Of a stretch of DNA of 64,000 nt, positions 48,901-57,900 are shown piece by piece. Source of the stretch: Bolinopsis microptera (taxonomy: Eukaryota > Ctenophora > Tentaculata > Lobata > Bolinopsidae). The stretch's first letter is position 1. Each line of letters starts with the position of its first letter. The stretch lies in NCBI RefSeq assembly GCF_026151205.1, contig NC_087083.1:13514944-13578943 (forward strand). Direction: 5' to 3'. The position numbers and the translations under genes were made by a program. The notes below the pieces were generated by a model that was not told where the DNA came from, searched no databases, and worked only from the letters and a program-made list of their open reading frames with translations.

Positions 48901-51900
48901 GACAAGTATACGATATCAAACTTGGGACATCTCTTTATTTCTAATTTTTCTGACAGGTTCGGCAATCTTCAACTACTTTCATTTTTATTTTAAATGATTT
49001 GGATAACTAAACATCTCGACTCTTTTCAAATACTTTAATCCAATTTGCAATAATTGTGACTCAGTTGTTGTTGTCGTTGTTGTTCTTCAGCAAATAGCTA
49101 AATTTTTGTTTTGAAACCCCACGGTGGAGGTTGGCGTGTGCCGCAATTTATTGATCAATGTTTATTACATAAATGAAATTATAGAAGTCACACTAAAATA
49201 TAATAATGTAAAATAAATATATTAAAATAAATGCCCTACTAAAAGTACTATATAACTAACGGTCTGCAAAACTGGTTGAAGTCGCAATTTGTAAACATGC
49301 TAATTACTATTTAATAGTAATTGATAAAAAGTTTTGCGCGGCAGATGTAAATTCGGCATTGCATAATGGCAGTGAAATTAAAATGATATGTTGTTGATAA
49401 CAGATCATGGTCATTTGTCGCGAGTGATCTTTCTTTACGCGTTGTCGCTTACTAACTCGGTGCTGTAGTCTATTTGCGAGCGCCCTTCTCGTTGAGACTT
49501 TCTTAGCCCAGGTATACTATAAAGTAAGAAATTTGGCCAATTTTCATCGTCTCCTGAGCTTTGCAGCTTGAGGAGTTCGCGCTTAGCTGAATTTTTAAAG
49601 ATTTCAATTGAAAAGGTAGAACTTGGAATAGTTATATCCTTACTTTGTTTTGTAATAGAGAGCATGGGTCCTTTGAAGAAAAGAGTATTTCTAAATGTTG
49701 GGCCGTTGTAAGTTGTGAACCAAGAAAGGTTATGTTCGAATGTGGAATTATAGGTGGGAATATCGTGAGGGAAAAGTTCTTTGATGGATTTAGGGAGAAG
49801 GCTTGGCATGTTCCTTACTTTGTGTAGTAGAATAAGAGCGTTTTTTACAATGACGCTATGGACTGTTAGGATATTATGCAATCTAAACGCACTTTTTGTG
49901 TGCTCCGGGGGATTGCCGTCTTTATATCTATAATTTACATATCCTGACATAACAGCTCTAATTCCCTGCTTTTGCTTGGTGAACAGAGATTCAATGTGAC
50001 ATTTTGAGGCAAATCCCCACACTAAAGAACAGAAATTTAGATGGGATTGGATAAGGCTTTGGAAAATGTTTAGGCGGGCTTTGATAGGTAGAAGGTGCTT
50101 TAGCTTATACATAACTCCGAGGTAGCGACCCATCTTTATTCTAACGGCCGTAATGTGTTTTTGCCAAGTGAGCTTTTCGTCTAGGATCACTCCTAAAAAT
50201 CTTGCTTCAGTCTTACGTTCGATTACAGTGTTGTCAATGGACAAATTAAAGCCGCTGAAGTCGATTCTTTTTCTAGTGAAAATCATATAACACGTCTTTT
50301 TTACATTTAAAGATAGCCCATTAACACCTACCCAATCTACAAGACGTGAAATTAGCTGATTAGCTTTTAATTGTATTTCTTCTAGGGTGGTTCCACTAAT
50401 TAATATGTTTGCGTCGTCGGCATAAAGGATGAACTTTGCAAAATCACTAATTCCAGGTAGGTCGTTTATATAAATTACAAATAAGAGAGGTCCTAAAATG
50501 CTACCCTGAGGTACGCCGTAAACTATGGGCATGCTAGAAGAGCAAGTTCCGTTTAAAGTTACGTATTGAGATCGATTACAAAGGTAAGATCTAAACCATT
50601 CGTGCGCGACTCCCCGGATCCCATGATGGTCAAGCTTCTTAAGCAAGGTCTCATGATCAAGCACGTCAAAGGCTTTACTGTAATCGAGCAGGAGCAGTAG
50701 GGAAATTTGTTTCTTATTCAGAGAGTGTAGTATGGAATTTTGGGCATTGAGCAGTGCATGTTCGCACGATCTTCCTGGCCGAAATCCGTATTGATTTTCG
50801 AAAAGAGAATCGTTCTTATCTAAAAATTCTAAAACACGAGCATGCATAAGTTTCTCATAAATTTTCGAGAATGATCCCAAAAGAGAGATCGGCCTATAAT
50901 TAGCTACTTCCAATTTTGAACCACCTTTGTGGATAGGAACGACTTTCGCAGTTTTTAGAGCATTTGGGAAGGTACCACTGGAGAACGAACAGTTAATGAC
51001 ATTAGCTAGTGCCCTGGTAAAGTTTTCGCAGCTGTTTGCAATTTTCAATGGCTCAATTTTACAATCGAGTGTGGACTTGTTCTTAAGCCCTGATATTATC
51101 TTTTGGACTTCACCGTGTGATGTAGGCTTAAGAAACATCGAGTTACTACACGAAGCCTTAAGAAAATGCTTGAAACCACCTGGGTCAAAGGTTCGACGGG
51201 CAGCGATTTGCCTCTTGATACTGGCTGCAATACCGGAGAAGTAGCCGTTAAATTTCTCAGCGACTGCCAGATCGGAGCTTATAATCGTGCCATCGTCGTC
51301 CTTCAGACGGGTGTGTCCGAACTTTTTTCTGTTACGGTTCAGGAGGCCATTGATAATTTTCCATTGACTTTTAGAGCAGTTTTGGTATTTGTCAAACATT
51401 TTTTTATAGTACTTTTCTTTGGCTAGATTCACATGTTTGTGACAAAACTTTTTCATTTTATCATACGCGTCGCAGTTTTTTTGTGATGGATTTATAGTTT
51501 TTTCAAAAAAAAGTAACTTCTTGCGGTTGCATGCCGCCTCAAGCCAGGGTAAGATCCAAGGCTTTGGGTCAGCTCTTTCGAATTTTCTTCTCGAACTGTC
51601 GCGCTTCAGGGGGTATGCAGTATTGTAGTGTTTCATGTACGTTTGATAGATGGAATTGTATTGTTCATCAGCGCACGTTGAGGAGGTAGCATCATCCCAG
51701 GTCTCACTTACAATAAGCTCTTTGAATTTAGCATGATTAGCTTCGTTAAATACACGGGCCTCTAATTTCAAGCTAGTGTTGTTGTTCTTTACACGTTGAC
51801 TACGGAATCGCTCGTTCAAACTAGGTGTGGCTCCTAAACTAATGGTCGTGCTAACCGCGAGATGATCTGACATATCCAACGTCACGACATTACAACTAAC

Positions 51901-54900
51901 AACGTTTGTCACGTGATTAGTATACACGTGATCAATAAGCGTTGCACTGTGGTCAGTTACCCTGGTAGGCTTGGAGACAGTCTGGGCAAACCCATATTTT
52001 TCTAGTAAGCTTATAAGATCCTGGCTGTAAGCGTCGGTATCGTATTTTATAAGATCAATATTTGCATCACCCAGGAAGACTATCTGCTTTCTGGAGTGTC
52101 TATCAAGACCCCTGAGCACGTTTTCAAACTTTTCAAGGAATTTTTTAGGGCTTGTGGATGGCGAGCGGTAGAAATTTACGATGATTTTTGTCTTATTTCC
52201 GTTTTTAAAATTGTTGATTTTAAGCAATTGAAATTCTCCGCAAGTAACTTCTTCTGGACTCAGATTGAGTTCGAGTTCCTGTATTTTATCGTAATCACAA
52301 ACGCGTTTGTTAACATAGAGCGCAAGACCACCTCCTTTTCCAGATTTACGTGCAGGTTCTTTGATAAAGGGCTCGTAAAACTGTTCGATTTCAATGTCGT
52401 TCAGACCATTAGGAAGATTAGAAATTTTACAGTTGGTTTCATTGAGGCAGATGAGGTCAAATTTGGAGAATGTTTCTATTTCTTCACTAAAATTTGAGAT
52501 ATTCTTCACGAGTGATCTAACGTTTAACGAAAGTATCTTAAATTCGCGATTGCTAGGGGTCTTGATATTATCAGGGTGTTGGTACTTACAGCTAACCAAT
52601 ATCTCCGATATACAATTGTTGAGATCGATTTCGCTGGAATCTATTTCATCAGTAAGTTCGCCTATTTGATTCAGTACGTGAGAACGAATATAGGGGTTAA
52701 AAGTGGGGGTTATTGTATTGTAATTATCATTAAGTTCGTAGGAAGTTACTCTATAGCCAGGTATTAGGTTTAGACAGCATGTAATACAACCAAGATAATC
52801 TTTGAGGCATTTTTTATGAACTGGTTTGTCACATACAGGACAAATGAAAACATTTCTAGGAGCATAAGACCACCCGAAGCAACTTGAGCATTGTGATTTG
52901 AAACTAGGTTCAACCATTGTTCAAGATGTGTAAATACCAGATATCTGTGAATAATTAAGTAAGATATTAAATAGATAAGAGTGTATAGTATGGTGTATAG
53001 AATAGCTTGTACAGTCTAAGAATATGTATAAAAAGCTAATGTGTGTGCGTGTGAATGAATGAGGAATAAACTGTGTGCTGAGAAAGCGTAAAGATGAAAA
53101 AGAAAACTTGTTAGACCTACCTATCAAGAACTATACAGCTCTGTGTGTAGATAGAATCGTAACGTAGTCTACAATATTACAATATTACGATAGCGGTACT
53201 GATTTCAGAACTATTCTAAAGTGTTTAAAAAACTCGGGCAAGAATTCTAGTAACTTACGATAAGCTGATAAGAGCACGGGCATGACTATATATTTTCATG
53301 CGAGGGTTTTCATTATAACCATAAGATGTAAGCTATAATCCCTTAAAGATTGTGAAAATTTTGGCGCGGCAAGTATAAGTAGTAGGCTGGGGTACGGCTT
53401 TGTGAGTTTGTATTTAACCGTTAGTTACCAGGCAAGAGCGAGACAAACTCCCGCCTTAATGGCCAGTGCTTTCGAACTTTCTCGCTTCGCATAGAGAGTT
53501 TTTGAACACCGGTCACCAGACAGTTAGCTATCTCACTCTTGGGCAGCTGAGTAATGTGAATCCCATTTCCAGATCTATCTAAAATCTCAAACCCTTTGTT
53601 AAATATCACACTACAAATATGGTGGGAGTCGAAAAACCAAAAGTTACGATTTTCGATCAGACTAAAGTCAAACATGCAGCGGTTAAACAAATCAACCTCC
53701 TTATTTAACCATGCAAATCTCGTTCTAAGAAGGGAGTTGAAAACAAACACTGTTTTTGGATATCTAGCAAACAAGTAGTTAAAATTGTCCCTAATTTCAC
53801 GGGAAAGTGTATAGCTTCTATGGTCATATCTCGACAAATCATTAATACCGGAAGATATAATCACATAATCGCAGTTTTCAAAAAAATTTTCAAACTTCAT
53901 TAAGTCCGTGAGTTGGTACATGTCACGCTTTATGACACGAAAGTTAGAGGGGAAAGATGATGGGGTGTTACGTATCATAGAGTCAGTAAGGTATAGGACA
54001 GTCTGTTTGGAGGGTCTCAGGGGGTCGGATGGTGCTATTGACGGTTCATGGATTTTAGGAATGTGCGTGCGCATGGGCTTGTCAATGCGTCTAAAGGTCA
54101 CTGACACACGACACGAGGTGACGCCAGGTTCGGGTTGTATCGCATGCTCCCAGAAAAACTGAGACTCTGTGGTCATTGCGTACACTGTGCCATTCCTTAG
54201 TTCGTGTTCACGTCGCTCATCAGTGACTATGTTACGGAAAGTTAAGGTGCGAGTGGCCCCAAAGCTGGCAGTGATGATTTCACCCGTTAAGCCTGTTTCA
54301 TTATCAGAGTGAAACGGGATAGAGTCTGAGCCTGTCTGGTATCTAGTGACCATGCAAGTAACGTTATCCCTATTGAAGGTGGGATCGTCTAGTTCGTCAG
54401 CTATACAGTCTAATATCTTATTTACAGCGTGATCAGATGGTGGGTAGGCCTTAGCGCGATGGGTAATACTGCCGTAACTGTATTTACTGGAGCCGAAGTA
54501 AGAGACGTCACGTGATCCTATGCGTTGAAAGTCCAGTCCATCACAAACATTATGCGTTTCAAACTCAAACTTTGATCGCAAACTTCTTACCGGAGTAGCT
54601 TCTAGTACTTCCTCGTGTCCGGCTGGCGAACCTGTGACGAAGGTTGAGGGATCCGAAGTAGTGTTGGGAGTAGAGTTCCTAGCGACGAGAGAACTAGAGC
54701 TCCTTATCACCTCCTTGTATTCGTCAAGCGTCTGTTCGGCTTTTTCCAGCAGCATGCAAAAATCGGAGGTTAGATTATCGTGTATAGTCTGCTTATCAGT
54801 TGGATTTCTGATAAGATGATCATAGTATCTAGAGTCTAGATTTAGCTTTGCTGTCATGTATGGTTTTCGTAGCGTTTTGTTTGTAGATTTACAGAGTCCG

Positions 54901-57900
54901 GCACTTAAAGATTCACGATAAAGTTGGTCCGGTGTAAGTGACGGCAGTAGCTCGAGGCAAGTTTCTGGCGTAAAAGTAGGTACCCAAAAACCAACAAACT
55001 CTGTCTGCGTACTGTGATTTTCGACGTTTATCTTACCTTCAGCTTGAGGGTTTGCCGAGCAGTGTTTTTGATCTGCGGCAGTGGTGGGGGCACCACTGCC
55101 CAGCAACCCCTTTTCAGATGTGTCGCTCTGCGTCGTGGTACTCGAACTAGAGGTAGGGCTGTGGGACTCCAGAGGACTCGAGGGGATCAAGCTTAGGTCA
55201 GTAGGACTCGAACTAGGCTCAGAAGACATGGTATAGAGGGTGTAAAAGTAGGTGTAGGATGTAAACTGGTTAACAAGACGTGGCTAAAAGGCAGGTCAGG
55301 CCGCGCGTTATCAGCTTATCAGATTACTATCAGCAGCAACAAAACATTTAGTGAATATTGATGAATGAATTTAGTGAATATTGATGAATGTTTAGTGAAT
55401 ATTGATGAATGAAAAGTGAATATTGATGAATAGGGAAGTATGTTTCAGAAATTTACCAAAAGGTTAGATACCGAGCAAGCGACGAAAAGGAACTGTCAAT
55501 GATTTAAAAATGATACTGGAAATGATATTAAAGTATTAAAGTTAACATTTTTCAGCGATGTCGGTTTCTACTCATGCAGTGCCACTAATAATTGTGGAGA
55601 GAGGTGTTCTGCGGACTCCCAATGCTCAAAACACTCAGCACAAAGTATAACTTTTACGTTTTTACAGATATTCGATCGGTCGATGCTGCAATAAAGCTGA
55701 CTGATCAATAACTTTCGTCATATCCTCATGATTTTCGTCACTGATAAGTCCAACAATAAGCCACCAACTTGTTACCAACAAATTACCAATTAGTTACCAA
55801 AAAGTTACCAACAAATTAACAATTAGTTACCAATAAGTTACCAACAAATTAACAATTAGTTACCAATAAGTTACCAAAAATTTACAATTAGTTACCAACA
55901 AATTACCAACAAATTACCAACAAATAAATCCCTCTCCGCTACTATTCAGGTCCTGACTACGAGTTAAAGATAGAGGACGATATTCTGACCCCTACAATTC
56001 CTCAGCAAATCAGAATAGACTACTACTTCCTTAATCCAAAAAACGTGAAGTGCTGGATCGACAGTTGTTTCTCGTATCACAGAACTTCCAGTAATCTCTA
56101 CATGTATATCAGGCCTCATGAAGATGTTCATGTTGAGGTTAGTTGTTAATGTTGAGGTTAGTTGTTAATCTTGACAGTTGAGGTTAGTTGTTAATGTTGA
56201 GGTTAGTTGTTAATGTTGAGGTTAGTTGTTAATTTTGAGGTTAGTTGTTAATGTTGAGGTTAGTTGTTAATGTTGAGGTTAGTTGTTAATGTTGAGGTTA
56301 GTTGTTAATGTTGAGGTTAGTTGTTAATGTTGAGGTTAGTTGTTAATGTTGAGGTTAGTTGTTAATGTTGAGGTTAGTTGTTAATGTTGAGGTTAGTTGT
56401 TAATGTTGAGGTTAGTTGTTAATGTTGAGGTTAGTTGTTAATGTTGAGGTTAGTTGTTAATGTTGAGGTTAGTTGTTAATGTTGAGGTTAGTTGTTAATG
56501 TTGAGGTTAGTTGTTAATGTTGAGGTTAGTTGTTAATGTTGAGGTTAGTTGTTAATATTGAGGTTAGTTGTTAATGTTGAGGTTAGTTGTTAATGTTGAG
56601 GTTAGTTGTTAATGTTGAGGTTAGTTGTTAATGTTGAGGTTAGTTGTTAATGTTGATTGTTGAGGTTAGTTGTTAATGTTGAGGTTAGTTGTTAATGTTG
56701 AGGTTAGTTGTTAATGTTGAGGTTAGTTGTTGATGTTGAGGTTAGTTGTTAATGTTGAGGTTAGTTGTTAATGTTGAGGTTAGTTGTTAATGTTGACCTG
56801 TTTATCACGGCACTCATGGGATCACGCTGATAAAAATTTAAAAGGGATTTTTCACATTTTTGTTAAATCTCTCAATGTAATCATGATATTATGACATAGT
56901 ATTTTGGCTCAATTAGGGTCTGAAATTCGAAACTTATAATTCCTGAACCACAGGTGTTCGCTGATATGCACTCCAACTCCAGCTACATTGGTTACGAAAT
57001 GAAAACATTAGTCCAGAGCCCAAGGTGAGGAAGCAAGATTTGCTGGATTTTAATTTCCATTCTGTAAAATAACTATTATAACTAGTAGTACCCAAAATAC
57101 TAACAATTAACCCGCGCGAGGTGCGAAGTGCGAATGTTATAACATCATTGATTATAAATCTGAAAATAGCCTTGCTCATTCCCATGTTCTCTCTCTCTTT
57201 TTACTCCTCCAAACCCAGCTGGCACTTAAGCGTATCATTTTGACGCATGTCACTCTTTACACCATCCTCCACCAGTCACTCTGATTTCACCGGCAACCTT
57301 CCCCAGGGTTGTCACACCCCAGAGGTAGGCAGAGCATCTCAATGCTATCCTCTCGTAGCCCAGCCTCTCTTTAAAAATATAAAAAAATTCCCAGGTTCAT
57401 ATCGTACAGCGATAAAGTATGTACAGGAGTATTGCGGAACTACACGAATAAAGATGTTTTTATCAACTCAGTCGACTGTGGGACTTACGATAGGTATGTG
57501 TAGAAACTACATTGTTACAATATGATTGTCACAATAAGATTGGAGTTTTATAATAATAAGTTTTATAACAATAAGTTTTATAATAATAAGTTTTATAATA
57601 ATAAGTTTTATAACAATAAGTTTTATAATAATAACTATTGACTGATTATTTAAATATTTACACGTTTAAAATACTTGGATCAGAGATAATGAAACTCTAT
57701 TAGGAATTAGGAAATAGGAACCTTATAGTTGATAAGAATTATCGGAATGTGGACATTTTAATATAATCATCTAAAGCTGCTTGAAAGCTTTGTATCTCTA
57801 AAATATTAGAAATTGTGAAGCATAATCACTGCATTATAAAGCACATCCATAAAGTACCAACTCATTAAAGTTGTAACCCTTTTTAAAATGCTTTCAGTCA

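Follow-up and report, generated by a model that had tools for sequence, protein, structure and literature searches.

An AlkB-type dioxygenase domain fused with an SGNH fold within ORF1 of a LINE from the ctenophore Bolinopsis microptera

The esterase-type (Type IV) first open reading frame (ORF1) of CR1/L2 long interspersed nuclear elements (LINEs, non-LTR retrotransposons), such as zebrafish ZfL2-1, contains an SGNH-fold domain and lies ahead of a second frame (ORF2) encoding an endonuclease (EN) and a reverse transcriptase (RT). ORF1 encodes the less understood of the LINE proteins, and an enzyme of defined chemistry inside it would permit a direct test of how this protein acts on element RNA. 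We analysed a window of 64,000 nucleotides (the whole stretch of DNA examined) from Bolinopsis microptera (contig NC_087083.1, positions 13,514,944 to 13,578,943). It holds a LINE with the same esterase-type arrangement, an SGNH-fold domain in ORF1 ahead of an EN-RT ORF2, and sequence and predicted fold agree that this ORF1 also carries an AlkB domain, that is, a 2-oxoglutarate- and Fe(II)-dependent dioxygenase, as an earlier note on this DNA had claimed.

The AlkB domain is recognised by Pfam family PF13532 with 63.3 bits, against a curated cut-off of 31.2 bits (E 4.7e-17). No other family, and no TET/JBP profile, was found in ORF1 in a Pfam scan at E<=1, Pfam presumably containing a TET/JBP model. 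In a structure model that drew on 98 homologues together with the window sequence, the domain is predicted to adopt the AlkB-type double-stranded beta-helix; a prediction from the single sequence was useless (mean predicted local distance difference test score, pLDDT, 35.9) and was discarded. The earlier note had read a complete AlkB from HxD 307/309, H362 and R374-x5-R380 and had proposed a profile search and a structure prediction as checks. Both came out in its favour, and the positions it named are near-invariant among the 137 listed homologues (Table 1). Judged from these alignments, the AlkB active site is complete and conserved. The nearest solved folds and the nearest sequences are those of human ALKBH2 and ALKBH3, not ALKBH5; the former two we take to be enzymes acting on N1-methyladenine (m1A) and N3-methylcytosine (m3C).

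The predicted structure of the following part of ORF1 has the SGNH fold, and its profile matches a solved 'ORF1-encoded protein', 4c1b (3e-7), which we take to be the ZfL2-1 esterase. The Pfam test for Lipase_GDSL/SGNH suggested by the earlier note went the other way, no GDSL family appearing at E<=1 with the single ORF1 sequence; Pfam on a single sequence is blind to this domain and, used alone, would wrongly have refuted the SGNH half. The canonical residues S417, N463 and H558 are kept. In alignment A2, block I Ser and block III Asn occur in 99/99 rows and block V His in 98 (the other row having a gap). Replaced in the window are the Gly of block I (by Thr), the Gly of block II (by Val) and the Asp of block V (by Asn). 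The block II Gly is present in all 82 other rows of A2 and in none of the 17 window-type rows (Cys in 13, Val in 4), 15 of which also have Asn for the block V Asp. In our own reading of the alignment, these last two positions correspond in ZfL2-1 to G165 and D279, which have been assigned to the oxyanion hole and the triad (PMC3905857). The 'SGNH hydrolase' of the earlier note stands as to the fold and the Ser, Asn and His of blocks I, III and V; it does not stand as a normal esterase, the oxyanion Gly and block V Asp being replaced. Rather than working as a standard esterase, this half probably helps the protein of the window's lineage to associate with lipids or membranes, or else persists as a structural remnant.

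A domain that kept its fold while losing canonical positions offers a precedent for its neighbour, and the AlkB fold could likewise have been retained as a non-catalytic binding or structural module. We consider this quite unlikely, as the metal and 2-oxoglutarate ligands, which a mere scaffold would not need, are all kept in nearly every sequence examined.

The features of the element are collected in Table 1. ORF2 lies 503 bp downstream of ORF1, and its EN and RT domains both exceed the Pfam cut-offs, so that the intact ORF2 of the earlier note holds, CR1-like staying that note's provisional label. In a PDB search the RT matched an L1-type chain (8c8j, 2.8e-17), and all its matches there were L1-type, R2, bacterial or intron RTs. 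A zinc-finger-like stretch may lie at the ORF2 N-terminus (read by eye; Pfam Prok-RING_1, E 0.45), and the long helix of ORF1 is perhaps a coiled coil. The 5' boundary was placed where seven copies (L001-L007, the window's included), in agreement inwards from ...CACTAAATGTTTTGTTGC, diverge beyond it. The 3' end, ...GGGGTTTCAAAACAAA, is common to the window, L037, L038 and L040, a fifth stretch (L039) lying inside ORF2 and stopping short of it. Outside the 5' end, a run of short AGTGAATATTGATGAATG-like repeats (plus strand), variable in length, extends to about 55432. Further out, repeats like GTTACCAACAAATTACCAA adjoin the element at 55760-55930 and a minisatellite of ~19-bp units (TGTTGAGGTTAGTTGTTAA) occupies 56130-56800, both seen by eye.

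Table 1. Features of the LINE in the window (window coordinates; residue numbers refer to ORF1)
Feature	Coordinates	Strand	Basis
LINE (non-LTR retrotransposon), ~6.25 kb	49103..55353	-	copy comparison; ends accurate to a few bases
ORF1 (602 aa); a disordered N-terminal part, then a long helix, AlkB and the SGNH fold	53421..55229	-	
ORF1 long helix, residues 143-178	54696..54803	-	predicted secondary structure
AlkB (2OG-Fe(II) dioxygenase) domain, residues 206-386	54072..54614	-	Pfam, fold
Iron-binding HxD, H307-S-D309	54303..54311	-	H and D in 136/137 listed homologues, 1 gap
Third iron ligand, H362	54144..54146	-	137/137 listed homologues
R374-x5-R380, expected 2-oxoglutarate-binding arginines	54090..54110	-	R374 136/137, R380 137/137 listed homologues
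SGNH-fold (GDSL esterase-like) domain, residues 408-580	53490..54008	-	profile and fold
ORF2, 1160 aa, EN and RT	49435..52917	-	
ORF2 endonuclease	51853..52533	-	Pfam Exo_endo_phos_2 2.5e-10, Exo_endo_phos 1.1e-7
ORF2 reverse transcriptase	50185..50931	-	Pfam RVT_1 6.3e-34

The assembly of Bolinopsis microptera (264.65 Mb) contains at least 7 full-length, stop-free copies of ORF1 at 99-100% identity (73 scored of 889 candidates) and at least 14 of ORF2 in the same identity range (40 scored of 6877 candidates); by coordinates, both frames are intact in five elements, including the window's. The LINE was probably active until recently, since so many intact copies are near-identical. A further copy, whose ORF2 is intact and whose ORF1 match starts at residue 67, lies at C12:13424399-13430005, some 135-140 kb from the window's copy. 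A chance overlap of reading frames, an assembly chimera or a captured fragment of a host gene is hardly credible as the source of the fusion: we found no point in its support, near-identical copies are spread over different contigs, diverged families share the architecture, and the host ALKBH2/3 matches lie elsewhere.

The earlier note had seen the pairing in one element. It is real there and not confined to it; as far as sequence comparisons go, the AlkB-SGNH pairing recurs in other kinds of LINE and in a Helitron of the same genome. PF13532 exceeds its cut-off at at least 150 places (587 candidates, 150 scored, 151 rows), of which at least two are host genes, and a search with the protein P0018 gave 80 rows (71 scored of 1003 candidates) of 30-47% identity, at places partly shared with the PF13532 set. 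Element types were read from 9 stretches (L041-L049) and a further 10 (L050-L059). In PHD-like LINEs (L043, L045, L048), ORF1 starts with a PHD-like finger, followed by AlkB and SGNH; the finger does not reach its threshold of 24 bits, scoring 16.9 in L043 and about 20 in P0104 and P0134, and L059, whose N-terminus lies outside the stretch, groups with them by sequence. LINE-H (L041, L044, L046, with L054 as a further copy by eye) combines AlkB with an SGNH-like part, and LINE-K (L042, L047) has AlkB near the N-terminus, then a probable coiled coil and an SGNH-like part. In the Helitron (L049/L050, C10:16871000-16885600), a frame of 3388 aa holds, in this order, an SGNH-like part (6e-5), AlkB (4.5e-21), DUF6570, Helitron_like_N (3.1e-22) and a PIF1 helicase (2.8e-22). 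Of five Helitron-type AlkB pieces, this was the one in which replication domains were read; L049 and L055 show the SGNH-like part, a region outside the fetched stretch in the other three. Other long AlkB frames, of 2225-3366 aa, were noted on C3, C9 and C12.

Several Pfam results weigh against the SGNH side of these pairings: in the frames scanned, GDSL falls short of its curated threshold in the Helitron (24.0 bits, the threshold being 32.9), in LINE-H (L041, 8e-6) and in LINE-K (L042, 0.007; L047, 0.09), and is not listed in the scan of the PHD-like L043. Our own SGNH profile matches all four kinds of element, with 156-178 bits in four PHD-like loci and 15-28 bits in LINE-H, LINE-K and two Helitron pieces.

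The elements carrying the pairing are well diverged. Among six window-type families (A, B, C, D, E and G) ORF2 identity is 36-57%, E and G being 85% identical; over aligned parts, the identity of the window ORF2 is 23-25% with the ORF2s of the PHD-like loci and 22-25% with that of LINE-H, and LINE-H and the PHD-like loci are 20-28% identical to each other. LINE-K, known from short pieces only, includes one RT piece with 26% identity to the window RT (E 7e-9), and is likely a separate LINE too. A large family of AlkB+SGNH proteins (P0018-P0137), several with a PHD-like finger, has no match among viral contigs; this P0018-like type appears to be old, or wider than Bolinopsis microptera, because its long Bolinopsis matches are just 30-42% identical. 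A protein of Mnemiopsis leidyi (P0008) with AlkB and endonuclease domains matches 72% of the query at 42% identity.

In a tree of 53 AlkB rows (P0148 excluded), the window type forms one group (support 100/98), and a 97/92 branch parts the window type, LINE-H, the PHD-like types and the Helitron from host ALKBH2 (L051, 4e-60 to human ALKBH2) and ALKBH3 (L052, 4.6e-40). A derivation of these AlkB domains straight from host ALKBH2/3 was rejected on the strength of this branch. A third host-like frame in the tree, L053, bears an ALKBH3-like label given without a search. Grouping the Helitron AlkB with host ALKBH was also rejected (approximately unbiased test, p-AU 0.017), the group having been chosen after the tree was seen; the Helitron sits on a long branch whose precise placement has weak support. 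The LINE-K AlkB may be a second capture, because the free tree places it on the side of host ALKBH; the same test does not reject a single origin for all element AlkBs (p-AU 0.276). The SGNH tree, poorly resolved and with long branches meeting, gives no decision on whether AlkB and SGNH were inherited jointly. P0138, a Bolinopsis microptera protein annotated by NCBI as 'alkB homolog 3-like', looks almost identical, on visual inspection, to the start of the LINE-K ORF1 in L047. It is likely a misannotated ORF1 piece, L052 being the better ALKBH3 match in the genome, and a caution to those who annotate such gene models.

We also found no support for a recent, one-off insertion of AlkB in the window's family, as some sister elements with an ORF2 about 63% identical also carry an AlkB ORF1. 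Eleven such places were listed and seven checked for ORF1; by coordinates, three of the eleven (on C2, C3 and C5) adjoin AlkB ORF1 matches. One sister (L061) has a complete AlkB+SGNH upstream of ORF2. In another (L060, C2:7651300-7654700), the C-terminal part of AlkB and SGNH stand in frame behind a different RT piece (...SAYADDAELLSEDG...), an arrangement that reads as a chimera or nested insertion. L062 retains the SGNH end only, and L063 has no ORF1 within 3.3 kb upstream. No full-length ORF1 lacking AlkB was found among the sister loci checked, and in our own reading L060, L062 and L063 are truncated or rearranged.

Selection was estimated as the ratio of nonsynonymous to synonymous divergence (dN/dS, Nei-Gojobori), leaving out pairs with an AlkB dS of 0 or above 3. 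For AlkB, dN/dS is 0.07-0.16 between L017/L018 and L019-L022, and 0.09-0.10 between L034/L035 and L036, the latter values being rough because dS is 2.5-2.9; the SGNH values for the same comparisons are 0.11-0.18 and 0.07. Ratios of 0.15-0.29 were obtained for the window against L002, L006 and L007, of 0.15-0.26 in pairs with L025, and of 0.24 for L034 with L035. Less favourable to constraint are four window-family copies against L036 (0.34-0.40, dS 2.0-2.3) and pairs with few differences, at 0.5-0.9 (L002, L006 and L007 mutually; L019 with L020; L028 with L029 and L030). On balance these values point to purifying selection, clearest in two families.

In the general view, a LINE ORF1 protein binds the RNA of its own element and packages it. 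Either lesion, m1A or m3C, forms chiefly in single strands and stops reverse transcription. The explanation we hold to be best, though it falls a little short of being probable, is that the ORF1 AlkB demethylates m1A and m3C in element RNA, perhaps also in cDNA, next to a non-standard SGNH domain. ORF1p would bind element RNA in cis, and its AlkB, using Fe(II) and 2-oxoglutarate, would strip these methyl groups from the single-stranded RNA, and perhaps the cDNA. An ALKBH2/3-type enzyme tethered to the ribonucleoprotein would in this manner clear lesions from the template, and since these modifications occupy the base-pairing face, where they stop the RT, their removal would increase the number of full-length copies. 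From the predicted fold we infer that demethylation of the element's own RNA or cDNA suits ALKBH2/3-like folds better than an ALKBH5-like one. Against the repair reading, besides the less constrained pairs and the GDSL matches below threshold described above, stand two points: a fold like that of ALKBH2/3 does not by itself establish the substrate, and, as the genome has ALKBH2 and ALKBH3 matches of its own, it is not evident why the element should need a private enzyme.

Action in trans on host RNA, DNA or protein, for example to blunt a host response, seems unlikely, since the usual view has LINE ORF1 proteins acting on the RNA of their own element. Nothing in the analysis indicates a host target. 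The range of targets reported for AlkB homologues, in the part of the source available, does include DNA, RNA and proteins (PMC12494543).

A rather doubtful, if more serious, alternative is that AlkB erases regulatory marks, such as N6-methyladenosine (m6A) in element RNA or N6-methyladenine (6mA) and other methyl groups on element DNA, and so evades host silencing. The AlkB domain of an orchid Ty3/Gypsy element binds RNA and demethylates m6A in vitro (PMC9289625, accessible portion), and fungal DNA transposons and Helitrons with TET/JBP dioxygenases have been interpreted as escaping methylation silencing (PMC12730594, likewise in part), a spread that the recurrence of AlkB in LINEs and a Helitron parallels. 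Against it stand the proximity of the fold and sequence to ALKBH2/3, not ALKBH5, and the finding that mammalian L1 retrotransposition is helped by the m6A writer METTL3 and suppressed by the eraser ALKBH5 (PMC7873242, as far as the text was available), so that m6A erasure would be of no obvious benefit to a LINE.

Lesion repair could also extend to the Helitron, where AlkB would clear lesions from a single-stranded DNA intermediate; Helitrons too pass through single strands, the main site of such lesions, which would explain AlkB in both kinds of element. The recurrence of the pairing across elements suggests that this mobile DNA comes equipped to repair its template or to erase marks. We propose, tentatively and as something that may well prove wrong, that AlkB and SGNH form a mobile 'single-strand protection' module, exchanged between comb-jelly retrotransposons and rolling-circle transposons and long kept catalytic. 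If so, unrelated elements with naked single-strand stages would carry their own demethylase to clear copy-blocking lesions. More generally, recurrence in several kinds of LINE and a Helitron would show a repair or arms-race trait across transposon classes, comparable to fungal TET/JBP.

The earlier note knew of no description of an AlkB-esterase fusion, and we found no earlier report of AlkB in a LINE or Helitron among the listed matches to open-access titles and abstract starts, with Repbase, Dfam and subscription papers outside that search. Word searches of the available text find no AlkB, dioxygenase, 2OG or ctenophores in a survey of Jockey/CR1/L2 ORF1 (PMC4120745), and no AlkB or oxygenase in a paper on bdelloid retroelements that describes GDSL capture (PMC5408684). 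Among known systems, the orchid (Phalaenopsis) Ty3/Gypsy element resembles the window element in carrying an AlkB-like 2-oxoglutarate-dependent dioxygenase (2-ODD) domain on a retrotransposon; it differs in being a plant LTR element, whose AlkB is an additional open reading frame and an m6A demethylase, no SGNH partner being mentioned in the accessible part (PMC9289625). Plant RNA viruses (Alpha-/Betaflexiviridae, Closteroviridae) also have AlkB in an RNA-based mobile genome, according to the same portion of that source. Theirs is part of a viral replicase rather than of a LINE ORF1, and our fold search with the ORF1 AlkB also matches such replicases. We know of no SGNH partner for the viral domain. 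Fungal TET/JBP proteins, like the Bolinopsis AlkBs, are 2-oxoglutarate dioxygenases found across transposon lineages of one genome, Helitrons included (PMC12730594, text seen in part), yet belong to a different dioxygenase family. Human ALKBH2 and ALKBH3 are closest to the ORF1 AlkB, yet exist as stand-alone host enzymes, and their identity to it across the aligned fold is about 23%. From the Type IV ORF1 LINEs, with which it shares its SGNH fold and its order of frames, the window element is set apart by its AlkB domain, none being described there, and by the replaced block II Gly and block V Asp.

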